A DNA stretch of 64,000 bases from an uncultured Pseudomonadota bacterium. GTDB taxonomy: Bacteria; Myxococcota_A; UBA796; GCA-2862545. The notes below the pieces were generated by a model that saw nothing but the letters and a program-made list of their open reading frames with translations, was not told the origin of the DNA and ran no database searches. Below are positions 5,418 through 25,380 of the stretch, in pieces (the first letter of the stretch is position 1; every line of letters starts with the position of its first letter). The position numbers were made by a program, and so were the translations under genes. Location of the stretch: the NCBI GenBank assembly GCA_913061235.1, contig CAJXTB010000007.1:62001-126000 (forward strand), in the 5' to 3' direction.

Positions 5418-5434
5418 TTGGCCCGCATCTTGCA
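5418..5434 (+). promoter_or_regulatory. Sigma-54 (-24/-12) promoter for the porin-like gene
   Basis: TTGGCCCGCATCTTGCA fits the sigma-54 consensus TGGCACG-N4-TTGCA with one change. The GG (5420-5421) and GC (5432-5433) are exactly ten bases apart. Transcription would start near 5445, inside the palindrome at 5441-5458 and about 50 bases before the ATG at 5498. Confidence 0.65.
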
Positions 5435-5440
5435 GTCACA

Positions 5441-5458
5441 GCGGACATGCAGGTCCAT
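5441..5458. promoter_or_regulatory. Palindromic operator, denitrification motif
   Basis: GCGGACATGCAGGTCCAT contains the perfect core GGAC-N6-GTCC, placed 7 bases after the sigma-54 -12 element so that it covers the predicted start of transcription. That position suits a repressor. The same core recurs near 14.1, 14.7, 17.7 and 25.2 kb. Confidence 0.6.
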
Positions 5459-5497
5459 TAATTGCACTGTTCCCCATGGGCCTGTGACGGAGAACCC

Positions 5498-7066
5498 ATG
5501 TTTTCGCTATTGACGCTCAGTCTGCTCGCCGCGTCCGCGTTTGGGCAGGAGCCCCAGGCCGCCCCCGCAAGCGCAGAAACTCCCGCCGCACCTTCAGAAC
5601 CGGCTGGTCCTGTAGAAGCAACTGCCGAAGAAGCCCCCAAGCCATTCAAGCTGTCGGGCGTGTACACGGTGTGGGGCCTGACCCAGAACAACTTCCTCTT
5701 CGGCGCAGCGCACCCATTGGACGATGCTGCCTACACTGTTCAGATGCTGCGATTGAGGTTCGAGGCGCAGAAGCCGACATACGGTGTGGTCGCTCGCGTG
5801 GACGCCGCCCAGGGATGGTGGGGTGCGGACAACTCGCCGAACACTGAGACCGTCACGGGTGTGGACGCAGACGGAAACCCGACCACCAACACCATCTACA
5901 ATCCCAACGCCTACTTCACGGACAAAGACACCAACTACGCCATTCATGTTGACCGCGCGTACGGTTGGGCCAACCTGGATCTTGGCATTCCGGTGCAAGT
6001 CCGTTTGGGACGCATGGGCTACCAGATCGGCCAGAAGCTCGTGCTGGACATGGACTTCGACGGCGTTCAGATTGAGGCCACGGCCACCGAAGACGTTCAC
6101 ATCTCCTTGTGGTGGGCCAAGATTAGCGAAGGCTTGGGTGCTTTCACCCAGCCCCGAGGCTTGCTGATGAGCGACGAAGACGTCAATGCCGACGCCGACT
6201 TGCTGGCTCTCATCGGAACATTTACCCCTGGCGAACACCAGATCGATGCGTTCGCCATTGCCTACTGGGACCGCTCAGGCGACGGCACGGCCACCTACTA
6301 CCCACAGGGCCTCGGCTACCTTCGGTCGCGCTGGCAGCCGAACATCACTCAGGTGCTCGCTCTGGGCGTCTCCGCTGACCTGAAGTTCGATGTTGGCGAA
6401 GGCTTGGAAATCCAGGGAGAAGCAGACGTTCTCGTGGGTAATGACGACGTTGCCAACACCGACCACAGCGCTGGAATGCTCGACATCAACAACGGCAATC
6501 TGTTCGGCTGGAACGGCTATCTACGCGCTAATCAGCACGTCTCCGAGCCGCTCTCACTGGGATTGGCCTTCGGTATCGGCTCTGGCGACCCCGACAAGAC
6601 CAGCGGCTCGGGCAACATCAACAAGGTCCAGACGATGGGCTTCTTCCCGCTGACCAATGTGTGGGAAGACTCGGTCATGCCGGACATCGCGGGCATCTCG
6701 CCGCAAGGCTTGGGTTCACCGGTCAGTCGCGGCTACCGCGAGCTCGAGAACACGACGGCACTTCAGCTGTTCTCAACCCTTCAGCCGATTGAGAAGCTCA
6801 AGCTGATGGTCAGTGGCACCTACCTGCTCGCGACCACTCCGATTCAGGGCTTCGATGCGACGGGAGCACCTGCGGGAGACGGGGCCACGGACCTGGGCTT
6901 TGAGGTCGACCTGAACGGTACCTACACCATCGCTAAGGGACTCTCAGCCACCGCGCTCACGGGCGTCTTTGTCCCCGGTGCCGCTGCTGCAAACTTGATG
7001 ACCGGTGACGATACGAACCGAGACATTGCTTGGGAAATCAAGCTCGTCGCCGTCGCGAAGTTCTAG
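5498..7066 (+). CDS. Outer-membrane porin-like protein, likely denitrification-linked
   Basis: A 522-residue exported protein starting at ATG 5498 (GGAG six bases upstream). It has a signal peptide ending at AFGQ, a Pro/Ala/Glu-rich linker of about 30 residues, and then many amphipathic strands with Trp/Tyr girdles (LSGVYTVWGLTQNNFLFG, a FQIEATATEDVHISLWW-like stretch and others), closing in a terminal phenylalanine as outer-membrane barrels do. It resembles alginate-export/porin-type barrels. A sigma-54 promoter and the palindrome shared with the nitrogen-oxide genes precede it, so I infer a role in passing nitrate or nitrite through the outer membrane. The substrate is not shown by the sequence itself. 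Confidence 0.72.
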   Translation: MFSLLTLSLLAASAFGQEPQAAPASAETPAAPSEPAGPVEATAEEAPKPFKLSGVYTVWGLTQNNFLFGAAHPLDDAAYTVQMLRLRFEAQKPTYGVVARVDAAQGWWGADNSPNTETVTGVDADGNPTTNTIYNPNAYFTDKDTNYAIHVDRAYGWANLDLGIPVQVRLGRMGYQIGQKLVLDMDFDGVQIEATATEDVHISLWWAKISEGLGAFTQPRGLLMSDEDVNADADLLALIGTFTPGEHQIDAFAIAYWDRSGDGTATYYPQGLGYLRSRWQPNITQVLALGVSADLKFDVGEGLEIQGEADVLVGNDDVANTDHSAGMLDINNGNLFGWNGYLRANQHVSEPLSLGLAFGIGSGDPDKTSGSGNINKVQTMGFFPLTNVWEDSVMPDIAGISPQGLGSPVSRGYRELENTTALQLFSTLQPIEKLKLMVSGTYLLATTPIQGFDATGAPAGDGATDLGFEVDLNGTYTIAKGLSATALTGVFVPGAAAANLMTGDDTNRDIAWEIKLVAVAKF

Positions 7067-7094
7067 CGGGCGAAACCACCCATCACCTGTATCA

Positions 7095-7112
7095 TTGGAC
7101 CCATGTGTCCAT
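7095..7112. promoter_or_regulatory. Palindrome matching the denitrification motif, between convergent genes
   Basis: TTGGACCCATGTGTCCAT carries the perfect GGAC-N6-GTCC core but lies between the 3' ends of the porin and the nap operon, with no start codon served by it. It may be a spare regulator site or chance. Confidence 0.35.
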
Positions 7113-7215
7113 TGATGCAGTGTGGTTTCCTACCCAAACGAACCAAGCCGCTGGCGTCCCGAAGAACGGGGCACTAGCGGCTTTGTTGTTCGCTCTGCGG
7201 CGTGGACGCGAACGA

Positions 7216-7515
7216 CTACCGAAAGTCAATCTTCATGCGAACCAAGCGGACGCCGCCGGGGACTGCGAACAGGGTGTCCCGCCACTCGTCGCCGTCCCAG
7301 TTGTAGCGAACTTGTACGCCGCGCACGCTGCCGGCGCGCATCATCTCAACCGCTTCGGTCAGGGGTACGGGCTTGCCGTCGGTGCGTTGAGTTGCAGCGC
7401 CTTTGACCAGCACATCGAGCACGTCAGCGTGCGTCTGTAGGTCGCTGACGAGCGCATCAAGGGTGGCCGCATCTAGGACCGATTCGTTGAGCTCGGCGAG
7501 TTCTGGGGCGTTCAT
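7216..7515 (-). CDS. Small protein at the end of the nap operon, unknown function
   Basis: A 99-residue soluble protein beginning at ATG 7515, whose ATGA overlaps the stop of the NapF-like gene, so it is translationally coupled to the nap operon. The N-terminal half is helical and Leu/Asp-rich; the C-terminal half has the polar stretch RYNWDGDEWRDTLF and ends KIDFR. There are no cysteines, so it is not a redox carrier. I do not recognise a family; a role in NapA maturation or regulation is only suggested by position. Confidence 0.7.
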   Translation of the reverse strand: MNAPELAELNESVLDAATLDALVSDLQTHADVLDVLVKGAATQRTDGKPVPLTEAVEMMRAGSVRGVQVRYNWDGDEWRDTLFAVPGGVRLVRMKIDFR

Positions 7516-7886
7516 TTGCACTCCGCTAGGGCAATAGCTGGCTTGGGTGCTGGGCAGGCCAGGACACAGTCGCCGCAGCCGGTACACACATTCGGGTCAA
7601 TTCGGGGGGCATGTGTTCCGGTGGCGATGAGCGCTCCGGGCTCTGGGCAGCGCTCGACACAGCTTGTACAGCTTGCGCCCATTGTAATCAGGCAATCGAA
7701 CGTCAAGACCCGAGCCACTTGGGCCCCGGGCTTGAGCACGGGGCTGGCGGCTTCCCACGGCGCGCGGTTGCGTGACCGGGACAGAAGGTCGGTCACGGCA
7801 GACGCAGCAGCCTCGGCGTCGCGTGTGGGCACGGCGTCTCTGATCAGTCCGCCAAACAGCAGACTGCGCCTGGACATCTTGCTCAT
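7512..7886 (-). CDS. napF: NapF-like [4Fe-4S] ferredoxin
   Basis: A 124-residue protein with two [4Fe-4S] sites: a NapF-style first site (C-x7-CTSCVERCP) and a canonical second site (CTGCGDCVLACP). It opens with SRRSLLFGG, a twin-arginine-like stretch also seen in NapF relatives. NapF is thought to help load or activate NapA in the cytoplasm. Start ATG 7886 overlaps the stop of the tetraheme gene (ATGA); the longer in-frame extension to 7934 would run inside that gene. It is the seventh gene of the nap operon. Confidence 0.85.
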   Translation of the reverse strand: MSKMSRRSLLFGGLIRDAVPTRDAEAAASAVTDLLSRSRNRAPWEAASPVLKPGAQVARVLTFDCLITMGASCTSCVERCPEPGALIATGTHAPRIDPNVCTGCGDCVLACPAPKPAIALAECK

Positions 7887-8650
7887 TGGCGTCCACCGGG
7901 CCGCTGTTCCAAGGGCGCCTGTGGCACATGGCACTGCTCACAGTTCTGGCGGTCTGGATGGGTGGACCGAAGCGCGTCGCGTCCGTTGGGGCCGTGACAG
8001 CTCATGCAGCGTTCATGCATGAAGGTGGGGTGTGCGATGGCCGGTGGCGCGATGCTGGTCCAGCGTGGACCTGCCTCGGGTGCGGCACTGCCCAAGAAGC
8101 TGTTTGGCACATCTCGCGGGTCGACAGCGACGCCTTCCGATGGGTTCGCCCAAGGCATTCCCGGCTCCGCCATTGCATGGCACTGCGTACAGACGGTGTA
8201 CGCCTCGTGGGGAATGGGGGTGGCCCGCAGTAGGCCAAAGCGAATGCCTGTGTCATGGCAGGCCATGCATTCCGAGGCCGTTGCCTGGCCCACGACATGC
8301 GGAATCACCGGTGGAGCCCCGTGGTACGCGCGGCGCTCAGACCTCACTGCGAGGTCGTCCGCTTTGGACGTCCCAGTGAGGTCGACCGCATCTGTGCGCG
8401 ACGGCACGCTGGCAGCGAGTCCAGCGAGCGCATCTGGCAATACCGCGGTTCCGCGGGGAGCATCACGCATGGCCAGATAGGTCCGCGCAGGTCCGATGTC
8501 GGCGTGTGAGGCTTGTTCCTCGAGGGTGCGTAGGGGCACCTCGAAGTCATAGTCGTCATGCGATGTGGCTCGCATGAAGCCCACTATTGCAATGCCGAGC
8601 ACGATGGCACTGGCCACGGCAAAACTTGCGCGCGTGCCTTCCGGTGTCAT
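7883..8650 (-). CDS. Membrane-anchored tetraheme NapB-like cytochrome c
   Basis: A 255-residue protein with one N-terminal membrane segment (about residues 10-28) and a periplasmic domain with four CxxCH motifs: CMACH, CTQCH, CMSCH and CEQCH. The two halves look like copies of the NapB diheme unit: each has APPxIxH, then CMxCH, a further His, then CxQCH, the last followed by VPQ as in NapB. NapB passes electrons to NapA, and this protein, sitting directly after napA, should do the same. ATG 8650 overlaps the napA stop (ATGA). Ordinary NapB is soluble with two hemes, so the anchor and doubling are unusual. Confidence 0.8.
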   Translation of the reverse strand: MTPEGTRASFAVASAIVLGIAIVGFMRATSHDDYDFEVPLRTLEEQASHADIGPARTYLAMRDAPRGTAVLPDALAGLAASVPSRTDAVDLTGTSKADDLAVRSERRAYHGAPPVIPHVVGQATASECMACHDTGIRFGLLRATPIPHEAYTVCTQCHAMAEPGMPWANPSEGVAVDPRDVPNSFLGSAAPEAGPRWTSIAPPAIAHPTFMHERCMSCHGPNGRDALRSTHPDRQNCEQCHVPQAPLEQRPGGRQ

Positions 8651-11052
8651 GTTGCAACCTTGCGTACACGTACTGCACACTTCTTGTAGTCGGGCTGCTT
8701 ACTGAAGGGGTCGTGAGCGTCCAAGGTCACGTAGTTGATGAGCAGGCGCTCATCGAAGAAGGGGACGAACACGCTTCCCGGCGGTGGTGAGCCGCGACCG
8801 TCAATCCACACGGGAAGGTCGATGTGACCGCGGCGCGACTCCACGCGAACTTGGTCGCCATTTCCAACCCCAAGCGCTGTCGCGTCTTGGCGGTGCATCT
8901 CGATGTACGCCTGTGGCATGGCGCGGCGAAGCTGTGGAATCCGACCGGTCATGGTGCCTGTATGCCAGTGCTCAATCACACGGCCGGTACACAACCATAG
9001 CGGGTACTCGTCGTCTGGCATCTCGGGTGGGTCCACGTACGGTGAGGACCAGATCTGCGCACGGTCGTCGCCAGAGGTCGAGTGGTAGAAGGCGTGCTCG
9101 GCGCCTTGTGGAACGTAGGGGTCGTCGAACTCTGCAAAGCGGTAGCGGGTCTCGCGCCAGGTGCCGTCTTCCTGCTCGACTACCGGCCAGCGCAGGCCGC
9201 GGCTCTTCACGTACTCGGTGTACGGCGCGAGGTCTTTGTGCTTGAGGCGCGAGAACAGTCGGTACTCCTCAAAGAGCTGCTGGTCGACGTTGATGTCGTA
9301 GTACCGGTTCCAGTCCCACACGGGGACTTCGTTGCCGGCTTCGTCGGTCATCTTGAACAGGAACTCGCCGTCCTTGTCCATCATGCCTTCGTAGCCGCGC
9401 TCGAACAGCTTGCGCGCCAGAGCGATGGTCTGCCAGCAGTCGTCGCGGGCCTGGCCTGGGGGCATGACCTGACGGAACCACTGCTGGGTCCGGCGCTCTG
9501 AGTTGCCGAACATGCCGTTCTTCTCAACCCAAAGGGCAGCGGGTAGCACCAGGTCGGCAATCTCGGTTGTTGCCGTTGGGTAGACGTCGCTCACAATCAT
9601 GAACTTGTCTGGGTCTGCTACGCCGGGATCGATGAGCTTGGCCCGGTTGGGCATGGTCTGGCCTGGATTGGTGACCTGGACGAAGATGGTGTGAATCGAC
9701 TCTGGGTCTTCACTCTTGGGGGTACACCACGACTCGAACATGGCCACGGTGTGCTTGCCTGGCTTTGCGTTGACCCGCCCAGCAGGCACGTTCCAGTACT
9801 CTTCGGACTGAGCACGATGGGCGTCATTTGCCACAACGCGTCCACCGGGAAGGGCGTGGGCGAGGGTGCCGACTTCGCGAGCTGTGCCACATGCCGACGG
9901 TTGGCCGGTGAGGCTGGTCGGATTGTCGCCGGGACGGCCAATGTGACCTGAGAACAGATGAACACCGTGCACCAATGTGTTGATGGCGGTGCCGCGTGTG
10001 TGCTGGTTCATGCCCATGCACCACAGGCTCGTAATCTTCAGGTCCGGGTTGCCGAAGAGGTCCGCGAGCATGCGAATCTTATCCGCTGAAACGCCGCTAA
10101 TTCGAGCAACCTCGTCTGGCGTGTACGGCTCTAGACCTTCCTGGAACTGCTCGAACGTGATGGCCTCGCCCTTGAGGGTAGGACTGTCTGCCTCGTGGCC
10201 ACGGAAGTTGCAGTGCTTCTCCACGAAGTCGCGGTTCCACGTTCCGTTTCGCAGCAACAGATGCAGGATGCCGTTGGCGATGGCCAGGTCACTCTGCGGG
10301 GTGAACTCGAGGTACTCGTCGGCGTGAGCTGTGGTCCGCGTACGCCGCGTGCCAATGTCGATAAGCGTGACGGTCTCGCCGCGTGAGCGCCGGTCGATGA
10401 ACCGGGAGAACAGCACAGGGTGCATCTCTGCGGGGTTGTTGCCCCAGGTGATGATGACGTCGCACTCATCGAGGTCCTGGAAGCATCCGTTCGGCTCATC
10501 GACGCCGTAGGTCGCAATGAACCCGGTCACGGCAGACGCCATGCACAGCCGCGCATTGGGGTCGATGTGGTTGTTGCCAAGGCCACCCTTCATGAACTTC
10601 TGTGCGGCGTAGCCTTCGGGAATCGTCCATTGGCCACTGCCGTAGAAAGCGAAGCCAGCGGGGTCGAGCATGACGCGGTCGGCCATGACTTCGAGAGCCT
10701 CGTCCCAGGACACGTCTACGAGAACGCCGTTCTTGCGTAGCTGTGGCGTGGTCAGGCGGTCTTCGCCGTACAACACGAGGCCGACGTGGTAGCCCTTCAT
10801 GCACAGAAGGCCCTTGTTGACGTCCGCTTCGCGGTCACCGGCAATGGCGACAACCTTGCCGCCCTTGGTGCCCACTTGGACGTGGCAGCCTGTGCCACAG
10901 AAGCGACAGGGGGCTTTGTCCCAGTTGATTCCGTCACCGGCCTGTAGGCGCGGGTCTGGCGCGTCCACCGGGGTGCCTGTGGCACGCGAGGCGGCGAGAG
11001 TGGCTGCGGTCATTGCAGAGAGCTTGAGAAATGTGCGGCGGTCAGTGGCCAT
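8647..11052 (-). CDS. napA: Periplasmic nitrate reductase catalytic subunit NapA
   Basis: An 801-residue molybdopterin oxidoreductase that reduces nitrate to nitrite in the periplasm. The N-terminus has a Tat signal (DRRTFLKLSA). The [4Fe-4S] site is Cys49, Cys52, Cys56 and Cys84, and the molybdenum ligand is Cys170 in NARLCMAS, the serine-protease-like spacing typical of NapA rather than NarG (Asp) or formate dehydrogenase (Sec). Length is usual for the family. Its ATG overlaps the napD stop by one base (TGATG). Neighbours napD, a NapB-like cytochrome and napF confirm the identity over assimilatory nitrate reductase. Confidence 0.95.
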   Translation of the reverse strand: MATDRRTFLKLSAMTAATLAASRATGTPVDAPDPRLQAGDGINWDKAPCRFCGTGCHVQVGTKGGKVVAIAGDREADVNKGLLCMKGYHVGLVLYGEDRLTTPQLRKNGVLVDVSWDEALEVMADRVMLDPAGFAFYGSGQWTIPEGYAAQKFMKGGLGNNHIDPNARLCMASAVTGFIATYGVDEPNGCFQDLDECDVIITWGNNPAEMHPVLFSRFIDRRSRGETVTLIDIGTRRTRTTAHADEYLEFTPQSDLAIANGILHLLLRNGTWNRDFVEKHCNFRGHEADSPTLKGEAITFEQFQEGLEPYTPDEVARISGVSADKIRMLADLFGNPDLKITSLWCMGMNQHTRGTAINTLVHGVHLFSGHIGRPGDNPTSLTGQPSACGTAREVGTLAHALPGGRVVANDAHRAQSEEYWNVPAGRVNAKPGKHTVAMFESWCTPKSEDPESIHTIFVQVTNPGQTMPNRAKLIDPGVADPDKFMIVSDVYPTATTEIADLVLPAALWVEKNGMFGNSERRTQQWFRQVMPPGQARDDCWQTIALARKLFERGYEGMMDKDGEFLFKMTDEAGNEVPVWDWNRYYDINVDQQLFEEYRLFSRLKHKDLAPYTEYVKSRGLRWPVVEQEDGTWRETRYRFAEFDDPYVPQGAEHAFYHSTSGDDRAQIWSSPYVDPPEMPDDEYPLWLCTGRVIEHWHTGTMTGRIPQLRRAMPQAYIEMHRQDATALGVGNGDQVRVESRRGHIDLPVWIDGRGSPPPGSVFVPFFDERLLINYVTLDAHDPFSKQPDYKKCAVRVRKVAT

Positions 11053-11303
11053 CAGTCCACCTCCGGTTCGGTATGAATGTCGGAGAAATCAGCGAATGCG
11101 AGCTCGATGAACCGCACGTCAGGATGCTTTTCAATCTTGCGCCAGACGTCTTTGTCGCCGTGGCGGTCGGCTGTGCAGGCAACGACGGGAATGCGGTCGC
11201 GGTCTACCGCTCCCACGGTGAGACGGGGGTCTTCGGAAAACTCACGAAGAATGCTAGGAATGTGCTCGGGCGCAACATGAACAACGGCGGAGACAACAGG
11301 CAT
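11052..11303 (-). CDS. napD: NapD, NapA signal-peptide chaperone
   Basis: An 83-residue protein from ATG 11303, starting MPVVSAVVHVAPEH, with the beta-alpha-beta pattern of the NapD family (pairs of short strands around VVACTADR and RFIELAFAD). NapD binds the Tat signal of NapA so that cofactor insertion precedes export. It overlaps the upstream NrfD-like gene and napA by one base each (TGATG), consistent with tight coupling to its client. Its small size and position immediately before napA make the call fairly secure despite low sequence conservation in this family. Confidence 0.82.
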   Translation of the reverse strand: MPVVSAVVHVAPEHIPSILREFSEDPRLTVGAVDRDRIPVVACTADRHGDKDVWRKIEKHPDVRFIELAFADFSDIHTEPEVD

Positions 11304-12583
11304 CAGTGGGCCTCCTCTGAGACGTGCATGTCGCCGCGGAACACGGCCACGGCAATCTTCAGGCCGAGTGTGAAGACAATCAGTCCCATGGCCCACACAC
11401 CCAGAGAGACCTTCCACTCCAGCGCATTGGGAAGGTACTCAACGATTTCGTGCAGTGTGGAGGGGACGAATCCAGGCACAATTAGGCCCAGTCCCTTCTC
11501 AACCCACAAGCCGAAGAGCGTGAGTACACAGGCAATGTCAATCAGCCACATGTGCTTGCCGGGGCGGGCGAAGATGAAGACGCCTGCCGCGATGGTGTTG
11601 AAGGATAGGGCGGTCCAGATCCAAGGAACCAGCGCGTTCTTTCCGTGTAGGCCGAAGTACAAGTACTGGGCGGATGCTGTGTGAGAGCCACCCGTGTACA
11701 GCTCAGTGAAGAGCTCGGAGCCGACCAAGAACAGGTTGAGGATGGTGGTCACGCGGAGGATGTTCAGCAGCGTGCGGATGGCGCCGTCTCCCACATGGAA
11801 GTCGGAGAATCGACGGATAATCTGCAGCGCGAGCACAATGAAGGCCGGCCCGCTGACGAAGGCGGAGACGATGAACCGCGGCGCGAGGATGGCGGTGTTC
11901 CAGAAGGGCCGTCCACCCAGGCCGCTGTACAAGAATGCCGTGACGGAGTGAATCGACACCGCCCACAAGATGGAGAGCAGCACGATGGGGATGTAGAACT
12001 TCGGGTTCGGCTTTCGCCCCAAGAAGCGCTGGTGCAGTAGGTAGCCGACCACATGCAGGTTCAACAGCAGGTAGCCATTGAGAACGATGACGTCCCACGT
12101 CAGCATGGAGATGGGCCAGTTGAACCGTCCGATGAACGGAATCATGTGCCAGACGCGGTCCGGGCGGCCAATGTCGACCGTCACGAACGAGATAGCGACA
12201 GCAACGGAGGCAATCGCTAGGATTTCTCCTACGATGACGACGTCATGCATTTCCTTGTCTTTGTACAGGTAGGCCGGAATCACCATCATCACAGCACCGG
12301 CAGCGAGGCCGACCGCGAAGGTGAAGTTGCCGATGTACATGCCCCAGGAGACGTGGTCGGTCATGGCTGTGACGCCCTGACCATTGACGACCTGGTGTAC
12401 GAAAGCATTGATACCAACAAGCCAGACCGCGGTCAGGACTGTCATCCAGACGTAGAACAGGGGGCCGCCATCCGTTGCAACGCCCAGGGCCTTCCAGATG
12501 AACTGCGGGTAGGACAGCACGGTCTCGGAGACACCGGCGGTGCCCTCTCCCTCGTGTGCATCACTTTGTGGTGTGGAACTCAC
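11303..12583 (-). CDS. NrfD/PsrC-type quinol-oxidising membrane subunit
   Basis: About 426 residues with eight to ten hydrophobic helices, related to NrfD, PsrC, DsrP and ActC. These proteins hold the quinol site and exchange electrons with a four-cluster iron-sulfur partner, here the gene just upstream. I chose GTG 12583, four bases after that gene's stop; an ATG at 12631 would overlap it by 44 bases and add a Ser/Thr-rich tail. Within this nap operon it occupies the place of NapC or NapGH, so I infer that it feeds electrons from the quinol pool toward NapA. Confidence 0.85.
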   Translation of the reverse strand: MSSTPQSDAHEGEGTAGVSETVLSYPQFIWKALGVATDGGPLFYVWMTVLTAVWLVGINAFVHQVVNGQGVTAMTDHVSWGMYIGNFTFAVGLAAGAVMMVIPAYLYKDKEMHDVVIVGEILAIASVAVAISFVTVDIGRPDRVWHMIPFIGRFNWPISMLTWDVIVLNGYLLLNLHVVGYLLHQRFLGRKPNPKFYIPIVLLSILWAVSIHSVTAFLYSGLGGRPFWNTAILAPRFIVSAFVSGPAFIVLALQIIRRFSDFHVGDGAIRTLLNILRVTTILNLFLVGSELFTELYTGGSHTASAQYLYFGLHGKNALVPWIWTALSFNTIAAGVFIFARPGKHMWLIDIACVLTLFGLWVEKGLGLIVPGFVPSTLHEIVEYLPNALEWKVSLGVWAMGLIVFTLGLKIAVAVFRGDMHVSEEAH

Positions 12584-12587
12584 GGTG

Positions 12588-13493
12588 TCACTCGTCGAAG
12601 AAGTAGAAGAAGCGGGGGAGCGTGCCAACATCCTCTTTGAGGACGAAGACGCGCTTGTTCTCGAGGACCCAGCGAATCTCGCTGTCCGGGTCGGCCAAGT
12701 CGCCGAAGACGCGAGCGCCAGTCGGGCAGGCCTCTAGACACGCTGGCAGGCGGCCCTTGCGGGTGCGGTGCAGACAGAACGTGCACTTCTCCATGACGCC
12801 TTGCGGGCGTACGCGGTTGGACAAGTAGGCTTGGTCCGGGTTGATTTCCTCTGCGGGAATCTCCGGCTTGGTCCAGTTGAAGCGACGTGCGTGGTACGGG
12901 CAAGCCGCTTCGCAGTACCGGCAGCCGATGCACCAGTCGTAGTCCACGACAACGATACCGTCGGACTCCTTCCAGGTGGCCTCAACAGGGCAGACCTTTA
13001 CGCACGGTGCGTTGTCGCACTGGTGGCACTGCACGGGCATGTAGAACTTGCCGGGCTTGGGCACGGGACCGTCGTAGTTGACCGTTCCGTTCTCCAGACT
13101 CATGCTTCCGTTGTCCATCTCCAACACGCGGATGTAGCTGTTGTTGGTGGGACGGTCGTGGTTGTTCTCTTCGTGGCAGGCCTTGCTGCAGTTGCGGCAA
13201 CCAATGCACACCGACAGGTTCAGCGCGTAGGCGAACTGCACGCCTGGAGTGGGGCGGACGTCCTCGACATGTACGGTAGCGCCGTACTCTTCGAGGGTCT
13301 TGGCCTCAATGCGGCGAAGGACCTTGTTCATGTCCTCGCGCGACATCTCTTTGTAGTGCCTCTGGATGAACTCATCGACGGACAGGTCGGCGGTCCACTC
13401 GGTGATGGGGGCAATCGCGCGAGCAAAGGCAGCGGCGCCGAGTGTGGCTCCACCGGCTTTCATTACGTTGCGGCGGGATGGGTCAAAGGCCAT
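12588..13493 (-). CDS. Periplasmic four-[4Fe-4S] protein (NrfC/PsrB type)
   Basis: A 301-residue protein with a Tat signal (SRRNVMKAGGATLG) and 16 cysteines in four groups: CIGCRNCSKAC, CHQCDNAPCVKVC, CIGCRYCEAAC and CTFC...CLEAC. This is the standard electron-wire partner of NrfD-type membrane proteins. Start ATG 13493 overlaps the stop of the lipoprotein cytochrome (TGATG). With the next gene it should form the quinol dehydrogenase module of this nap operon. It is longer than NapG-type ferredoxins and has no HEEN-type NapH partner. Confidence 0.9.
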   Translation of the reverse strand: MAFDPSRRNVMKAGGATLGAAAFARAIAPITEWTADLSVDEFIQRHYKEMSREDMNKVLRRIEAKTLEEYGATVHVEDVRPTPGVQFAYALNLSVCIGCRNCSKACHEENNHDRPTNNSYIRVLEMDNGSMSLENGTVNYDGPVPKPGKFYMPVQCHQCDNAPCVKVCPVEATWKESDGIVVVDYDWCIGCRYCEAACPYHARRFNWTKPEIPAEEINPDQAYLSNRVRPQGVMEKCTFCLHRTRKGRLPACLEACPTGARVFGDLADPDSEIRWVLENKRVFVLKEDVGTLPRFFYFFDE

Positions 13494-14092
13494 CAGTGAC
13501 CCTCCTGGTGCGAATCGTCTAGGTCGAGGTAGCGGTCGCGTGGTGGATGAACGGGCATCACTTGCTCGTAGGCAGGTGAGTGCGGGAAGTGGCAGTCGAC
13601 GCAGTTGTTGCGGTCGCGTCCGCCGCGCTGAAGGTCCCAATGGCCGGTCATGCCGCCGTGGGAGCCGTGGGTGTAGTCGCGGTACTGAACGCCATGGCAT
13701 TGAGCGCACAGGGTCATTGCGTCTGTGATGTCCAGCAGCTCGCCATCTGCGAGGTGCAGCTTGGTTCGGTCGTCAGACTGATGGCACGAATCGCAGCTTA
13801 GAGTGCCGTGCTCCAGTGCGACGTTTCCGTGGAAGTCCTGCGGAGCATCGTCGCGTTCCACCCAGGGGCCCTCGGCGTTGTCGCCGTGGCAGGTCGCACA
13901 GGGGACGCCAAGGCGAACTCCACGTGCGTCGGCCAGGTCAACGTCGGCGACGCCAAGACCGGGTGGCTGGTGGATGTGGACCGCGTGCGGCGCACCCTCT
14001 GTGGGACGCTCTGGGCCGAACTCACGGGACGGGTCTGTAAAGCCAGAGCCCGAACCACAAGCAGCGAGTAGTAGGAAAAAGATAGTGGACAT
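13493..14092 (-). CDS. Tetraheme cytochrome c lipoprotein, first gene of the nap operon
   Basis: A 199-residue lipoprotein (lipobox LAAC, cysteine at residue 12) with four CxxCH sites: CATCH, CDSCH, CAQCH and CVDCH, and extra histidines that could be distal ligands. It should receive electrons from the iron-sulfur/NrfD pair and pass them to the NapB-like cytochrome or NapA in the periplasm. An in-frame stop lies four codons before ATG 14092, so the short signal peptide is real unless an internal start is used. A sigma-54 promoter at 14106-14121 puts the transcript start only a few bases before the ATG. Confidence 0.83.
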   Translation of the reverse strand: MSTIFFLLLAACGSGSGFTDPSREFGPERPTEGAPHAVHIHQPPGLGVADVDLADARGVRLGVPCATCHGDNAEGPWVERDDAPQDFHGNVALEHGTLSCDSCHQSDDRTKLHLADGELLDITDAMTLCAQCHGVQYRDYTHGSHGGMTGHWDLQRGGRDRNNCVDCHFPHSPAYEQVMPVHPPRDRYLDLDDSHQEGH

Positions 14093-14102
14093 GAAGGTCG
14101 CC
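14085..14102. promoter_or_regulatory. Palindromic operator at the nap operon start
   Basis: On the plus strand GTGGACATGAAGGTCGCC: core GGAC-N6-GTCG, one mismatch from GGAC-N6-GTCC. It is very close to the porin site (shares GGACATG and AGGTC). It begins three bases after the sigma-54 -12 element and covers the predicted transcription start and the start codon. Confidence 0.5.
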
Positions 14103-14105
14103 TAA

Positions 14106-14121
14106 GCAGAAATCGTGCCAA
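14106..14121 (-). promoter_or_regulatory. Sigma-54 (-24/-12) promoter of the nap operon
   Basis: On the minus strand TTGGCACGATTTCTGC, matching TGGCACG-N4-TTGC except for one T to C. The GG and GC are ten bases apart. Predicted transcription start is near 14094, giving an almost leaderless message for the first cytochrome gene. Confidence 0.68.
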
Positions 14122-14232
14122 CTCTGGCAGCAGAATCTGGGGTGAAATCGTACAATCGAGGTCGTCAAACGGGGGAGAAGGCACATGGGGGTGTGCGGTT
14201 TGCCACAGCCGGATGCGTGGCATCTGACGAGG

Positions 14233-14649
14233 TCAGCCTTCGACGTGAACAGCGGGTACGACCGGTTTCCGGCGACTGGCCTTCGTTGCGCAAGGGCCCG
14301 GTTCCCCGACGAATGCCCAGTGCCTCACCGCACCGGGGGCATGGCTGATCACCGAGCCAACGACGACGGCTGCAATCAGACAGGTCAACGTCCACTCGGG
14401 CTGAAGTAGGGCGAATCCGAGCAGCGAGATCTTGCTGACCGCCGCCCAAAAATGCAGGTAGCGGAACACATCTGAGCCGTAGCGAACAACGTCATCACCA
14501 AGCAGCGCGAAGCCACTTGCGAACAGCACAGCCACGGCCCCCTCGTCGAGAGGCTGGCCGATAACGGCGTTGCCACCAACGAACATCACCGACACTAGGT
14601 GGACTGTTCGCGCGCCGATTCGAAACCAGCGTTGCCCGCGGTACTTCAT
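14233..14649 (-). CDS. Small integral membrane protein of the denitrification island
   Basis: A 138-residue protein with about four hydrophobic helices (around residues 10-30, 38-55, 62-80 and 85-108) and a polar, basic tail. Conserved-looking polar motifs include [11 protein letters not shown] and [10 protein letters not shown], with histidines in or near the membrane that could bind heme or metal. I chose ATG 14649: GGAG sits six bases before it, and the upstream ATG at 14661 lies in the operator. It has its own sigma-54 promoter and shares a 17-base leader with nnrS. I do not recognise a named family; the co-regulation suggests nitrogen-oxide metabolism. Confidence 0.65.
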
Positions 14650-14659
14650 TCCAAACTCC

Positions 14660-14677
14660 ATGGACTTTAAAATCCAG
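14660..14677. promoter_or_regulatory. Palindromic operator between the small membrane gene and nirK
   Basis: ATGGACTTTAAAATCCAG: core GGAC-N6-ATCC, one mismatch from the perfect form. It directly follows the -12 element of the minus-strand sigma-54 promoter and covers its start site. The flank AAAGTCCATGGAGTTTG (minus strand) is identical at nnrS. nirK starts 173 bases away on the other side. Confidence 0.55.
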
Positions 14678-14691
14678 CAAGTTTCATGCCA
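14677..14691 (-). promoter_or_regulatory. Sigma-54 (-24/-12) promoter of the small membrane gene
   Basis: Minus strand TGGCATGAAACTTGC: GG-N10-GC spacing is exact, and the only departure from TGGCACG-N4-TTGC is one C to T. Transcription would begin near 14665, about 16 bases before ATG 14649. Confidence 0.65.
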
Positions 14692-14849
14692 CGGTGGTGG
14701 AGCGGTTGTGCTGGCCATGCCTTGCCCGCTGGGAACCGCGAAACACAGATGCGGCGGGGCAAGAAAAAGTGGGGGTGGCGAAGGTCTGCTACAGCAACTC
14801 TCTGGGCGAGCGTGTTAATAGATGTCGTTATCCACTAAGAGGAAATGTC

Positions 14850-16331
14850 ATGCGTTCCATCCTTCTTGCCCTCGCAACTCTCACGGCTTGCCAGGCTCCG
14901 CCTGCTGCCGTGGCTCCAGTCCCCTTCACTACGGGGGGCTCCGCTGCCGGTGACTTTGGACCGCCTGTTGGTGACCCGATTATCGCCGAGCTGACCAACG
15001 CTCCGAATGTTCCGCCCCCCATTGATCGGGACGAACCCGCTACGGTTGTGGTCAACCTCGAAGTCGTTGAAAAGGTCATGCCCATTAGCGAAGGCGTGGA
15101 CTACACCATGTGGACATTTGGCGGCGAAGTTCCTGGAAAGTTCATCCGCGTTCGGCAAGGTGACACGGTGGAGTTCCATCTTCAGAACCACCCTGACAAC
15201 CGCATGCCGCACAACATCGACCTGCATGCTGTGACCGGTCCAGGCGGTGGTGCTGCCAGCAGCTTTACCGCTCCGGGTCATGAGTCACAGTTCACGTTCC
15301 AGGCACTTAATCAAGGCATCTACGTCTACCATTGCGCCACCGCGCCGGTAGGCATGCACATTGCCAACGGCATGTACGGCATGATTCTCGTGGAGCCGCC
15401 CGAAGGACTTCCGCCGGTAGACCGCGAATACTACGTCATGCAGGGCGACTTCTACACGGTCGGCAAGTATCGCGAGAAGGGCTTGCAGCCGTTCGATATG
15501 CAGAAGGCCATTGAAGAGAACGCGACCTACGTTCTGTTCAATGGTGCAGAAGGCTCACTGACCGGAGACAACGCGCTTCAAGCGAATGTAGGCGAGACGG
15601 TTCGGTTGTTCGTCGGTAACGGCGGGCCCAATCTTGTCTCTTCGTTCCATGTCATTGGCGAGATCTTCGACCGCGTCTACACCGACGGCGGCACCTTCCC
15701 GCAAGAGAATGTCCAGACAACGCTTGTGGCCTCGGGTGGCGCGACCATGGTGGAGTTTGATGTTGAAGTTCCTGGCACCTACGTGCTCGTGGACCACAGC
15801 ATCTTCCGCGCGTTCAACAAGGGTGCCATTGGCATGCTGAAGGTGGACGGACCGGAATCGCTGGGCGTGTACTCCGGACTGGAGCTCGACAGCATCTACG
15901 TGGGTGACCTTGGCGACCACGAAGGCATCATTGCCGCCGTCACCGAGGCCGAAGCCGGAGGTACCGTTACGCTCGAGCAACAGATTGCCGCTGGTGAAGC
16001 GTTGTTCGGCGGAAGCTGCTCCGCATGTCACCAGACGACTGGCACGGGTGTTGAGGGTGTGTTCCCGCCACTCGCTGGGTCCGACTTCTTGATGGCCGAC
16101 AAAGAGCGTTCGATCGGTATTGTGCTGAACGGACTCACCGGGCCGGTCACCGTCAATGGCAGCGACTACAACAGTGTCATGCCGCCAATGCGTCAGCTCA
16201 ATGACGACGAGATTGCCCATATCCTGACCTACGTGCGCAACAGCTGGGGCAACTCCGGTGACGCTGTGACCGCCGAAGAAGTCGCGACCGTCCGTTCCAC
16301 TACAGATGCTCCAGCAGGCGCGGCGCACTGA
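14850..16331 (+). CDS. nirK: Copper nitrite reductase NirK with C-terminal cytochrome c domain
   Basis: A 493-residue lipoprotein (lipobox LTAC, residue 12) that reduces nitrite to NO. Two cupredoxin domains carry a complete set of ligands: type 1 copper His121, Cys162, His170, Met175; type 2 copper His126, His161, His316; catalytic Asp124 and His267. After about residue 350 a linker leads to a class I cytochrome c domain with Cys390-Ser-Ala-Cys393-His394 and a later Met (MPPM). Such fused NirK proteins carry their own electron donor. Start ATG 14850 has AAGAGGAA upstream. The gene overlaps nirV (TGATG). No clear sigma-54 element precedes it. Confidence 0.95.
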
Positions 16332-17071
16332 TGCTGTGGTGGTTGGCCATTGCTGCGGCAGGGGACGGAGTTGCGATACAGGCCGGTTCTTATGAGCCGC
16401 TGTATCCAGTAGACCCCGCCGTTCCGCGCACGTTCGTCTCGTCGTTCATTCTGGACGCGACCCCTGTCACCCGCGCCGATTTTTCGGCATTTGTGGCAGA
16501 GAACGAACGTTGGCAGCGGGAGCGCGTTCCCGCCGTACTGGCTGACCCCGGCTACCTCGCGTCTTGGTCGGGACCGACCGAACCACCTGCACCCTTGGAC
16601 ACCCCCGTGACCGAGGTGAGCTGGTTCGCGGCTCGCGCGTACTGTGAGTGGCGAGGTGCTCGTCTGCCTACCGAAGATGAGTGGGAGTACGTGTCCCGGG
16701 CGTCTGAGGACAGCCTTGACGCGAGCAAGGATGACGCCTGGCTTGCCAGGACGTTGGCTTGGTATGGCTCACCGCGAACGGCGGGAAGTGGCCGAGTAGG
16801 CCAACATGCGCCCAATGCCCACGGCGTGCATGACATGCATGGTTTGGTGTGGGAATGGGTCGAAGACTTCAACAACACGCTGTTTGGTACAGACGTTCGC
16901 GAGGGCGGAGACGCCGAGACCTTGCGCTTCTGCGGCTCGGGTACGCTGTCGGCCACGGATGTGAGTGACTACGCGACCTTTATGCGCATTGCCTACCGAA
17001 GCTCGCTGCAAGGCAAGTACACAACGCGCGGCATGGGTTTTCGCTGCGCAGCTGACCAGGAGTCGCCATGA
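16331..17071 (+). CDS. nirV: NirV, FGE-sulfatase-domain protein
   Basis: A 246-residue exported protein of the SUMF1/formylglycine-generating-enzyme fold: it has VTEVSWFAARAYCEWRG, LPTEDEWEYVSR, HGVHDMHGLVWEWVED and the closing GMGFRCA, all hallmarks of the fold. Proteins of this type beside nirK are named NirV; their exact role is unsettled, perhaps NirK maturation. It has a short signal peptide (LAIAAAG). It overlaps nirK by one base and the SCO gene by four (ATGA), so the three are one translational unit. Confidence 0.85.
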   Translation: MLWWLAIAAAGDGVAIQAGSYEPLYPVDPAVPRTFVSSFILDATPVTRADFSAFVAENERWQRERVPAVLADPGYLASWSGPTEPPAPLDTPVTEVSWFAARAYCEWRGARLPTEDEWEYVSRASEDSLDASKDDAWLARTLAWYGSPRTAGSGRVGQHAPNAHGVHDMHGLVWEWVEDFNNTLFGTDVREGGDAETLRFCGSGTLSATDVSDYATFMRIAYRSSLQGKYTTRGMGFRCAADQESP

Positions 17072-17649: not shown

Positions 17650-17729
17650 GCCGCTGGGCGGGCGCGCCAACTCAGCGACGCACAGATTGACTTGCGGCGT
17701 GGACCCCTAAACCGCTGCGAGGTATGTCA

Positions 17730-17747
17730 GCGGACTTGGAGGTCCAC
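17730..17747. promoter_or_regulatory. Palindromic operator overlapping the norE ribosome binding site
   Basis: GCGGACTTGGAGGTCCAC has the perfect GGAC-N6-GTCC core and matches the nnrS site at 14 of 18 positions. The GGAGG ribosome binding site of norE lies inside it and the ATG follows two bases later, so bound protein would cover the very start of the gene. No sigma-54 element was found upstream. Confidence 0.55.
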
Positions 17748-17749
17748 TG

Positions 17750-18319
17750 ATGAGCAGTACGGCACAGACATCACACGTGGAGCTGCCCGGTGGGGGAGTG
17801 ATCTGGGTGGTCTTGGCCAGTGAGCTGTTGACGTTTGGCCTGTTCTTCCTAGCGTACGCCGCCGCCTACGGAGCCGAGCCTGAGGTCTTTCAGTCCGCTC
17901 AGGCCAACCTGCATGCCGGCTGGGGCACGATAAATACGGCGGTGTTGTTGACGGGGAGCTGGCTTGCGGCCCGTGCTGTCCAGGCGCACCCCGCCGGTAA
18001 GGCACGACCCTGGCTTGCCGCCGCAGCCCTGTCCGGCGTCGCATTCACCGGCATCAAGCTGTTTGAGTATGTTCACGTCTTCGAGCTCGGCATCACGCTG
18101 TCCACGAACACGTTTTGGTTTAGCTACCTCTTCCTCACCGCGATTCACTTGCTGCACTTGTTCGTAGGTGTGGGTGTCTTGGGCTGGTTGGCGGCGACCT
18201 ACGACCGAACGCAGACGGACGACTGGGCCGACACCATTGAGGCCGCTGCCGTCTATTGGCACATGGTTGACCTCATCTGGATTGTGCTCTTTCCGGCTTT
18301 GTACTTGGTGCATCCATGA
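17750..18319 (+). CDS. norE: NorE, cytochrome oxidase subunit III-like protein
   Basis: A 189-residue membrane protein with five hydrophobic helices of the heme-copper oxidase subunit III family: WVVLASELLTFGLFF, the TGIKLFEYVHVFE helix, and HLLHLFVGV followed by YWHMVDLIWIVLF. The short five-helix form beside norCBQD is NorE, which supports but is not essential for cNOR activity. It overlaps norF by four bases (ATGA). Confidence 0.88.
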   Translation: MSSTAQTSHVELPGGGVIWVVLASELLTFGLFFLAYAAAYGAEPEVFQSAQANLHAGWGTINTAVLLTGSWLAARAVQAHPAGKARPWLAAAALSGVAFTGIKLFEYVHVFELGITLSTNTFWFSYLFLTAIHLLHLFVGVGVLGWLAATYDRTQTDDWADTIEAAAVYWHMVDLIWIVLFPALYLVHP

Positions 18320-18573: not shown

Positions 18574-18600
18574 GCTGCGCTTGACGCGATTGTCCTTTCA

Positions 18601-18618
18601 ATGGACATTGATGTAGAT
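18601..18618. promoter_or_regulatory. Degenerate palindromic operator before norC
   Basis: ATGGACATTGATGTAGAT keeps the left arm ATGGAC but the right arm has two mismatches. It also overlaps a second inverted repeat, TGTCC-N7-GGACA, at 18591-18607. It ends 35 bases before the norC ATG. Weak on its own; noted because it is in the regulon position. Confidence 0.35.
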
Positions 18619-18653
18619 TGAAATAAGACCACGATTCACAGGGGGGTCCCGAT

Positions 18654-23425: not shown

Positions 23426-23872
23426 TTACTTAGGGTCCGCTTGGGTGTCAGGCAGACACCAAGTCGCCGTCTCCATCTCAGCCAGGGAGTGCCGGGTCAT
23501 CCAGTCTAGGTAGCCCCGCTTCAGCTCCATCCAGGCATCGTGTAGTGGGCATGGATTGTCGGGGTCGCACTGAGGGACTCCGAATGCACACCGATTCGTT
23601 GGCAGTGCGTCGACTGCTGCAAGCACGTCTTGCAGCGTGATCTGATCGGCCGCCAGAGCCAGTCGGAACCCGCCGTGGTGGCCCCGTTTGGCTTCAACCA
23701 GGTTTGCCACGACCATCTTGCGCAGAATCTTCGACAGGTAGGCCTTGGGAACCTGCGACCCTTGCGACAGCTCTTCCGCACGAACGAAGGTGTCTTGCGT
23801 AGTGGCCAGACAGCTCATTGCACGCAGCGCATACTCGGCAGTCTGGGTAATGAGCGGACTTGAGGGGGTCAT
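23426..23872 (-). CDS. Rrf2-family iron-sulfur regulator, NsrR/IscR type
   Basis: A 148-residue winged-helix DNA-binding protein. The N-terminus has the Rrf2 pattern (YALRAMSCLA, then VPKAYLSKILRKM as recognition helix and the GHHGGFRLA wing). Three cysteines, Cys95, Cys102 and Cys108, sit in the cluster loop as in NsrR and IscR. Convergent to norD and inside the denitrification island, it is best read as the NO-sensing repressor NsrR, whose [Fe-S] cluster is destroyed by NO. It is the only transcription factor in the island and the natural candidate to bind the GGAC-N6-GTCC palindromes. An imperfect palindrome just upstream (about 23875-23891) might allow autoregulation. Confidence 0.85.
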   Translation of the reverse strand: MTPSSPLITQTAEYALRAMSCLATTQDTFVRAEELSQGSQVPKAYLSKILRKMVVANLVEAKRGHHGGFRLALAADQITLQDVLAAVDALPTNRCAFGVPQCDPDNPCPLHDAWMELKRGYLDWMTRHSLAEMETATWCLPDTQADPK

Positions 23873-24081: not shown

Positions 24082-25212
24082 CTATCCTGGACGTCCATCG
24101 GAGCGAGGTGACAACAATACGACGGTGTTTCCGACCAAGAACAACACAAAGGCGACCGAGAACGCCGCCGCTGCGGCAATGAGGGCGTGCGTACTAGGCG
24201 ACACACCGGCCCAGATGCGAAACACCACGGCGATGCTGACCATGACATACGATGCGATGGTGACGCGACCGGCGACAATCGGTCGCCCGGTATGACCGAG
24301 CGATACCCGGGAGACCATGCCGAGAGTGAACGCTCCAAGCGCGCCGACGGTGAACAGATGTGTTGGAACGGTTGCCGCCATCGGCACGCCCAAGTCTACC
24401 GCCGCGCGGGCTAACAACGACACGCAAATCCAGACGTATCCAGCGTGAAGAATGGCGAGCATGGGCCGTGTCAGCGCCTTGGCAGAGCCCCAGGTCGACA
24501 TACGAACAAGGTGAGCAATCCCCGCCAGACCAGCAATCAGGGCAACGAGCAAGGGGATGTCTACGACCACCGAGAGGGCGTCGACACCGAGTAGAGCCCA
24601 GGTCAATGCCAGCGCTATGCGGTCGATGGAAGGTCTCTTGTGGGCGCCGGATTCCGGCAGTGCGTTGCGAGTGAACATAGGCACGATGCGCCCGCCTACA
24701 ATCACAATGAACAGCACGACAGCGTCCAATGTGAGGCGGACGGCCACAGTCTGGGAGAGCCAGCCTAGATGCCACGCTAGATCCACGGCGGACAAGCCCG
24801 CGAGTAGGCCAACAAAGGGATAATTCCGCCGGCTACCGGCAGCGATGAGCGGCCGCCCTACAGCCACCGCGAGTACCAGCGGAAAGGCAACGTCCAACAC
24901 CAGTCCCACCACCCCAAGGTCCACCACAGCCGCAACCCGTCCAGCGAGCCACAGCCCAAACAGAGCGCCGAGAAGCGGTCCTGTAGCCGTGGTACGTCCT
25001 GTCCAGTTCTGGGCTGCGGTCAGCAAGAAGCCGGCGACGATGGCCAAGGTGAAGCCGAACACCATCTCGTGGGCATGCCAGTGAAAGGGATTTAGCGGCC
25101 CGACCCACGACAGTTGACCGCCCAACACCAATGCCCAAGCGGCCATAGCGACCGATGCAAGCAGTGCTGCGCCTAGGAAGAACGGGCGAAAACCTGTGCC
25201 TAGCAGCACCAA
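24082..25212 (-). CDS. nnrS: NnrS family membrane protein
   Basis: A heme- and copper-containing membrane protein family linked to NO stress, about twelve helices and 376 residues here. Diagnostic are GTGFRPFFLGAALLA at the N-terminus, PFHWHAHEMVFGFTLAIVAGFLLTAAQNWTG, and the later RIVPMFTRNAL and HLFTVGALGAFTLGMVSRVSLGHTGR. The first ATG (25224) lies in the operator; GGAG of ATGGAG is spaced correctly for TTG 25212 (or GTG 25209), the arrangement used by the gene at 14649, so I prefer the later start. It is divergent from a methyltransferase gene, with the palindrome in between. The 209 bases between it and the Rrf2 gene hold nothing I recognise. Confidence 0.92.
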   Translation of the reverse strand: MVLLGTGFRPFFLGAALLASVAMAAWALVLGGQLSWVGPLNPFHWHAHEMVFGFTLAIVAGFLLTAAQNWTGRTTATGPLLGALFGLWLAGRVAAVVDLGVVGLVLDVAFPLVLAVAVGRPLIAAGSRRNYPFVGLLAGLSAVDLAWHLGWLSQTVAVRLTLDAVVLFIVIVGGRIVPMFTRNALPESGAHKRPSIDRIALALTWALLGVDALSVVVDIPLLVALIAGLAGIAHLVRMSTWGSAKALTRPMLAILHAGYVWICVSLLARAAVDLGVPMAATVPTHLFTVGALGAFTLGMVSRVSLGHTGRPIVAGRVTIASYVMVSIAVVFRIWAGVSPSTHALIAAAAAFSVAFVLFLVGNTVVLLSPRSDGRPG

Positions 25213-25222
25213 AACAAACTCC

Positions 25223-25240
25223 ATGGACTTTGAGGTCCAT
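25223..25240. promoter_or_regulatory. Perfect palindromic operator at nnrS
   Basis: ATGGACTTTGAGGTCCAT has six-base perfect arms and is the best copy of the motif in the window. The minus-strand flank AAAGTCCATGGAGTTTG is identical to that at 14653-14669. It covers the leader of nnrS and lies 141 bases before the divergent methyltransferase. Confidence 0.68.
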
Positions 25241-25380
25241 GAATATCACGCCGAGCCTCTATGGCAGGTCGAGCCTGACCATTGGTTGCACAACCTTGTA
25301 CGAACCGGGACTCGCCTTGGCGGAATGGTCGCGGTGTGTATGTGCTCAGAGCACGCCGATGTGGCAAGCACGGGGGGATA

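Follow-up and report, generated by a model that had tools for sequence, protein, structure and literature searches.

Reports on well-studied denitrifiers mostly place the nap, nir and nos genes under CRP/FNR-type and NarXL/RegSR-type regulators. The closest described relative of the system treated here, NmpRSTU of Myxococcus xanthus, combines a protoglobin histidine kinase with an NtrC-like response regulator and serves a sigma-54 regulon of cbb3 oxidase, a CBS-domain protein, a universal stress protein (Usp), HemN/hemerythrin and its own genes (PMC11841059). This 2025 paper does not mention nitrate and states the genes under the Nmp system in Anaeromyxobacter as unknown, and among the open-licence papers searched there was no work linking a protoglobin kinase to denitrification. 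In Bradyrhizobium, the haem-based oxygen-sensing two-component system FixLJ/FixK2 puts cbb3 together with nap/nir/nor/nos under a low-oxygen signal, joined by a second layer linked to nitric oxide (NO) (PMC6710368). We analysed a 64,000-nucleotide stretch (the window; positions 62,001 to 126,000 of contig CAJXTB010000007.1, assembly GCA_913061235.1) from an uncultured bacterium assigned to Myxococcota_A, which holds a denitrification cluster of a porin gene, a minus-strand nap operon and orf139, followed by nirK, an FGE-like gene, sco, norE, norC, norB, norQ, norD, an Rrf2 regulator gene and nnrS. The porin gene, the nap operon and orf139 are each preceded by what looks like a sigma-54 promoter with a palindrome directly downstream. 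In the reading that we favour, with a probability of about 0.7, this cluster would receive an oxygen input from a globin sensor and an NmpR-like regulator, and a nitrogen-oxide input from an Rrf2-type protein.

Predicted sigma-54 promoters in the window and in relatives

A sequence-only reading of the window had listed three sigma-54 elements with exact GG-N10-GC spacing, and all three were recovered in place, each agreeing with the -24/-12 consensus:

5418-5434, plus strand: sigma-54 element S1, TTGGCCCGCATCTTGCA, upstream of the porin gene; score 24.6, the maximum
14105-14121, minus strand: sigma-54 element S2, TTGGCACGATTTCTGCT (TTGGCACGATTTCTGC at 14121-14106), nap operon; score 23.4
14676-14692, minus strand: sigma-54 element S3, GTGGCATGAAACTTGCT (TGGCATGAAACTTGC at 14691-14677), orf139; score 22.9

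The same reading had made these promoters depend on an rpoN gene, and the genome (7.2 Mb in 72 contigs) encodes a single one (PF04552, E 2.5e-59). With a weighted -24/-12 score, five sites in the window reach at least 22.9, compared with a mean of 0.28 in first-order Markov copies; three of them are S1 to S3, and the other two (34383, 53081) lie inside long open reading frames. The combination of a sigma-54 site scoring at least 22 with a palindrome scoring at least 13 within 30 nucleotides (nt) was seen in none of 60 simulated windows.

The host's order is represented mainly by metagenome bins, its near relatives being titled Proteobacteria, Deltaproteobacteria or Myxococcota. In what follows, L numbers denote loci and G numbers genomes of the comparison set, while C numbers are contigs of the host's own genome; genome-wide statistics derive from pattern searches. 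Orthologues of the nap cytochrome were found in 17 of the 58 genomes searched, the host's own included, one of them being a weak and probably spurious match. The regions upstream repeatedly carry full-score sigma-54 sites, the element being kept in L038, L039, L043, L044, L048, L049 and L051. Within the order, a high-scoring site lies at most about 350 nt upstream of the nap cytochrome gene on the coding strand in 7 of 17 regions (0.012 expected for each), and in other taxa in 8 of 66 (0.004 expected for each); several Myxococcota from other taxa have such nap promoters, including Archangium violaceum and a Lujinxingiaceae bin. High-scoring sites also precede the porin gene (3/7; porin orthologues with sites are found in L038, L041 and L077) and nirK (2/6), and orf139 of L041 is preceded by one as well. 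Across the 19-kb loci compared, the strong sites stand on the correct strand before nap, porin, nirK and orf139, and none of the 14 napA genes inside the operon in the same order has a high-scoring site before it. The nirK gene of the window lacks a full-score site upstream, unlike nirK of L041 and L077, and norC and norE have no high-scoring element. Two planctomycete nap loci (L127, L133) show sigma-54-like sites with neither type of enhancer described below. Judged from these sequence comparisons, the three sigma-54 promoters look real.

Palindromes and the Rrf2 protein

Each of S1, S2 and S3 is directly followed by a palindrome of the type GGAC-N6-GTCC, as the sequence-only reading had noted, the cores GGACATGCAGGTCC (5443-5456), GGACATGAAGGTCG (14087-14100) and GGACTTTAAAATCC (14662-14675) beginning about 1 to 9 nt past the -12 element. 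A matrix built for the palindrome returns six matches scoring 19 or more in the window; every one lies at a gene start of the nap/nor region, and the next best match scores 12.3:

5440-5459, no strand: candidate Rrf2-type operator over the predicted S1 start; score 21.7, or 18.4 when left out of the matrix
14084-14103, no strand: candidate Rrf2-type operator spanning the nap operon's predicted transcription start and its start codon; score 19.1, or 15.1 when left out
14659-14678, no strand: candidate Rrf2-type operator directly past S3; score 19.5, or 13.9 when left out
17729-17748, no strand: candidate Rrf2-type operator directly before the norE-like gene; score 21.3
18600-18619, no strand: candidate Rrf2-type operator upstream of norC; score 19.1, absent from the matrix training
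25222-25241, no strand: candidate Rrf2-type operator over the nnrS start codon; score 21.9
23426-23872, minus strand: Rrf2-family regulator, NsrR-like, candidate repressor, with Cys95, Cys102 and Cys108

Leave-one-out scores were 13.9-18.4, random copies gave no match of at least 17, and 751 kb of other loci gave a single match of at least 15. As its gene is co-located with the palindromes, the Rrf2 protein is most likely their binding partner. Its three-cysteine pattern is kept in L308, L309, L319, L323 and L324. The palindrome is also found upstream of the Rrf2 gene in G020 (L324, scores 18.6 and 15.7) and G028 (L308, 15.0 and 13.9), and G020, G024 and G033 have it close to nap or porin starts; one operator of G020 lies near the enhancer, whereas those of the window genome lie over predicted starts. 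The porin and nirK promoters of G054 (L041 10372 and 1709) contain GGAC-TGGCAC/T-GTCC, which would place an operator-like palindrome across the -24 element.

The Rrf2 protein resembles NsrR in its fold, its three cysteines, its neighbourhood of NO metabolism and its putative targets nor and nnrS. It differs in the C-X6-C-X5-C spacing, in the operator GGAC-N6-GTCC, in putative targets that include nap and a porin with sigma-54 promoters, and in passing no equivalog cut-off.

Enhancer-type element and candidate activator

Upstream of the sigma-54 sites, an inverted repeat TGTG-N8-CACA was spotted by eye and then by matrix, and its representative in the window belongs to the nap promoter:

14192-14207, no strand: putative enhancer-type inverted repeat, read on the minus strand as TGTGGCAAACCGCACA and located some 71 nt upstream of S2

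A matrix made from cbb3 and regulator loci only returns this site as the top match of the whole window, with a score of 18.6 against 14.8 for the next; the latter, at 6135, lies inside the porin gene and is probably due to chance. Conversely, a matrix made from eight nap, porin and nirK sites and run on 686 kb of other loci gives matches of at least 15 only beside regulator, kinase and cbb3 genes; 2.7 Mb of random sequence contain none that reach 19. In most cases the distance from the element to a sigma-54 element downstream of it is 50-120 nt, also at an NtrC-type regulator and its kinase, and across the order the promoters of ccoN, regulator and kinase carry a sigma-54 site, the enhancer element or both. 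Exact matches to the module of enhancer plus sigma-54 site number four in the 7.2-Mb genome, two of which score high on both elements (nap, and a gene for a CBS-domain protein on C6). Over 58 genomes, the module search gave 39 matches compared with 13 for the reversed control. As strong matches precede CBS, Usp, ccoN and regulator genes together with nap, porin and NosZ genes, an NmpRSTU-like system with a changed site and an enlarged regulon appears to exist here. In G052, a NosZ gene (L344; TIGR04246, E 2e-176 over the available stretch) stands behind enhancer and sigma-54 module.

None of the nap/nir/nor loci examined encodes an enhancer-binding protein. Elsewhere in the genome, the search for NtrC- or NorR-type activators that the sequence-only reading had proposed yielded 18 full-length sigma-54 activator domains. 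With the enhancer matrix run on the loci of all 18 and on those of the activators of four relatives, high scores appeared beside orthologues of one NtrC-type regulator only:

C10, about 66917-68281: NtrC-type response regulator, convergent with the globin kinase gene
C10, 68328-69797: globin-coupled histidine kinase with N-terminal protoglobin domain, adjoining the cbb3 oxidase operon

The regulator has the NtrC-like architecture of receiver, AAA+ and Fis-type helix-turn-helix domains; its matches in Archangium reach 45-46% identity among many paralogues. At the sigma-54 contact loop, where GAFTGA is usual, the NtrC-type regulator (L258 4917-6281) reads GAFTDA, as it does in G020 and G001. The partner kinase is a protoglobin histidine kinase as found in NmpR/NmpU-type systems (Protoglobin, E 3.6e-32), its nearest solved globin being that of AfGcHK, with the proximal-histidine segment kept. 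It is present in 15 of 16 nap-positive and in 16 of 42 nap-negative relatives (Fisher p 1e-4, phylogeny ignored). From domain content and motif distribution, the activator is probably an NmpR-like response regulator with a globin-coupled kinase, not NorR or a generic NtrC.

Another activator, on C9, tracks nap in the four genomes compared, while its sequence reads as an RtcR-like regulator, which we take to be involved in RNA repair.

Proposed mechanism and comparison with described systems

Computation shows the sigma-54 elements and how they are conserved, the palindromes, the gene families, and an enhancer motif common to the nap promoter, the regulator's own promoter and the cbb3 promoters; what we infer is how proteins pair with sites, which signals they respond to, whether control is positive or negative, and which activator serves S1 and S3. 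On falling oxygen, the globin kinase and the NtrC-type regulator (NmpU/NmpR-like) would act at TGTG-N8-CACA enhancers to activate transcription, by sigma-54 RNA polymerase, of the cbb3 oxidase, the CBS-protein gene and, through S2, the nap operon. The Rrf2 protein would work as an NsrR-like Fe-S repressor on the GGAC-N6-GTCC palindromes, those over the predicted starts of nap, porin and orf139 as well as those at norE, norC and nnrS, and would release them once its cluster meets NO. The nap operon would then be an AND gate for low oxygen and NO, with positive feedback once denitrification begins. The two-input design of the sequence-only reading, an enhancer-binding activator through sigma-54 plus a repressor at the start site, is thereby supported by conservation and statistics, with the amendments that the activator is likely NmpR-like rather than NorR and that an enhancer was found for the nap promoter only. 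At S1 and S3, activation may proceed via a distant or degenerate site or another activator.

With NmpRSTU (PMC11841059, PMC6211767), the system shares an NtrC-like regulator controlled by a protoglobin histidine kinase, the use of sigma-54 promoters and autoregulation, as well as a regulon of cbb3 oxidase, CBS-domain protein, universal stress protein and its own genes, assigned here by motif only. It differs in its site, TGTG-N8-CACA in this order instead of GCGCA-N5-TGCGC in M. xanthus, and in a regulon that reaches nap, porin, nirK and nosZ; an NmpS-like hybrid kinase was not seen in the immediate neighbourhood, the wider genome not having been searched for one. As the published NmpR site precedes the nap sigma-54 site in other loci, perfectly in L097 and L108 and with one mismatch in L111 of Archangium violaceum Cb vi76, the comparison suggests that the NmpR-nap connection is wider than this order. 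AfGcHK of Anaeromyxobacter sp. Fw109-5 (PMC8697598; PDB 5ohe) likewise has an N-terminal globin with the proximal-histidine segment followed by a kinase; the protein described here has a PAS_4 domain in between, full-length AfGcHK being outside the comparison. FixL of the Bradyrhizobium system senses through a PAS haem and works via FixJ and CRP/FNR proteins, whereas a globin haem, an NtrC-type regulator and sigma-54 would serve here. NorR, for its part, also places a nitrogen-oxide gene under sigma-54, though it senses NO by a GAF domain. The likely activator here has instead a receiver domain and is paired with a globin kinase; neither norC nor norE, as said, has a high-scoring element.

Alternative explanations

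Several observations weigh against the favoured reading. As four genomes (the window, L038, L039 and L043; ATG in three, GTG in G038) have their nap start codon exactly 14 nt past the C of the -12 GC, the predicted nap leader is only about 0-2 nt long, which is unusual for a sigma-54 promoter. Neither matrix recognises an enhancer at S1 or S3 (best scores 2.5 and 0.4), and the nap-positive relatives L045, L046, L042, L047 and L050 have no full-score sigma-54 site upstream of nap. The co-occurrence statistic of nap and kinase ignores phylogeny. The Rrf2 protein scores below the NsrR cut-off (44.4 vs 182 bits) while exceeding that of the Rrf2 superfamily (97.2 vs 73.3), and its candidate operator differs from the known gamma-proteobacterial NsrR consensus. 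Finally, in L039 some 135 nt separate the nap promoter from the operator, which lies upstream beside the enhancer, meaning that a start-site block is not general.

These points leave room for other explanations. Promoters and palindromes could be real while S1 and S3, and perhaps S2, are driven by a different enhancer-binding protein, for which there are 18 activator domains to choose from and the missing TGTG-N8-CACA elements at S1 and S3 to account for. The regulator at C3:57967-59388, common in the order, seemed nap-specific at first; a whole-genome search showed it to be widespread, many genomes that lack nap included, and no match to the enhancer motif occurs at its loci in relatives. For a NorR-type NO sensor, the GAF-domain activator gave no reciprocal match in the two nap-positive genomes compared. 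Relatives do have the motif, of their own or shared, at the porin and orf139 promoters (L038, L039, L041, L077), and we regard a different activator as unlikely. That the palindromes are bound by a regulator other than the Rrf2 protein, or are themselves activator sites with no repressor acting over sigma-54, is in our view clearly improbable: co-location is the sole link between protein and sites and no equivalog cut-off is passed, but the palindrome recurs upstream of the Rrf2 gene and near nap and porin starts in the relatives named above, and it covers predicted starts as repressor sites do.

The TGTG-N8-CACA element could also be a site for a CRP/FNR-type protein, with the sigma-54 activator binding elsewhere, as the CRP consensus TGTGA-N6-TCACA has the same spacing and a like symmetry and such proteins control denitrification in many Proteobacteria (PMC1274295). 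The position of the element, mostly 50-120 nt from sigma-54 elements, the promoters of regulator and kinase included, argues against this. Such autoregulation and the same core regulon have been shown for NmpR in M. xanthus (PMC11841059), and we hold a CRP/FNR-type site to be highly improbable. Chance matches in GC-rich DNA, with the genes using ordinary promoters, would fit the abundance of one-mismatch matches (110 found vs 73 expected), which makes the loose consensus weak evidence, and the two full-score sites inside open reading frames. The specificity for position, strand and gene seen across relatives, together with the joint statistics of the module, makes this explanation next to negligible.

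Genes of the window

The nap operon comprises genes for a cytochrome c lipoprotein, a ferredoxin, NrfD, NapA and a NapB-like protein. The genes around the promoters are:

5498-7066, plus strand: outer-membrane porin-like protein (weak Alginate_exp, E 3.6e-4, under the Pfam cut-off)
7883-8680, minus strand: NapB-like multihaem cytochrome c (NapB, E 6.7e-7)
8647-11052, minus strand: NapA, periplasmic nitrate reductase (NapA models, E 4.6e-266 and 3.6e-255, slightly under equivalog cut-offs)
11303-12631, minus strand: NrfD-type membrane subunit (PF03916, E 1.4e-37)
12588-13709, minus strand: 4Fe-4S ferredoxin subunit (PF13247, E 7.3e-21; 73-88% identity in relatives)
13493-14092, minus strand: multihaem cytochrome c lipoprotein opening the nap operon, with its ATG at 14092, 14 nt past the -12 C
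14233-14649, minus strand: orf139, small membrane protein without known family, adjoining nnrS in L038 and L039
14850-16331, plus strand: copper nitrite reductase NirK with fused C-terminal cytochrome c domain (TIGR02376, E 2.6e-107, over the cut-off)
17750-18319, plus strand: norE-like gene
from 18654, plus strand: norC
24082-25224, minus strand: nnrS

The porin counterparts in relatives are 47-57% identical and adjoin nap or nirK. An FGE-sulfatase-like protein (16331-17071) is encoded between nirK and sco in the window and in several relatives. A reading frame at 7516-8022, convergent with napB and overlapping its 3' end, has counterparts of 39-45% identity in the same place in relatives.

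Implications

Globin-sensor and sigma-54 control of nitrate respiration with a start-site repressor appears to be described nowhere in the open-licence papers searched. Beyond the window, we propose tentatively, at slightly below even odds, that denitrification (nap, nirK, nosZ and porin) and cbb3 are governed chiefly by a globin-coupled, oxygen-sensing two-component system that works through sigma-54, throughout this order and, with a site that has diverged, in other Myxococcota, and that at some promoters this system is joined to an Fe-S NO repressor over the start codon of a nearly leaderless transcript, which would form an oxygen AND NO gate of undescribed kind. The nap and nosZ promoters of nitrate-respiring Myxococcota should in that case need rpoN and the NmpR-like regulator. 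For AfGcHK-type kinases, whose biochemistry has been studied in depth, the reading points to a physiological role. If true, the coupling of a globin oxygen sensor to sigma-54 would add one more way of controlling denitrification, in a deep bacterial lineage.

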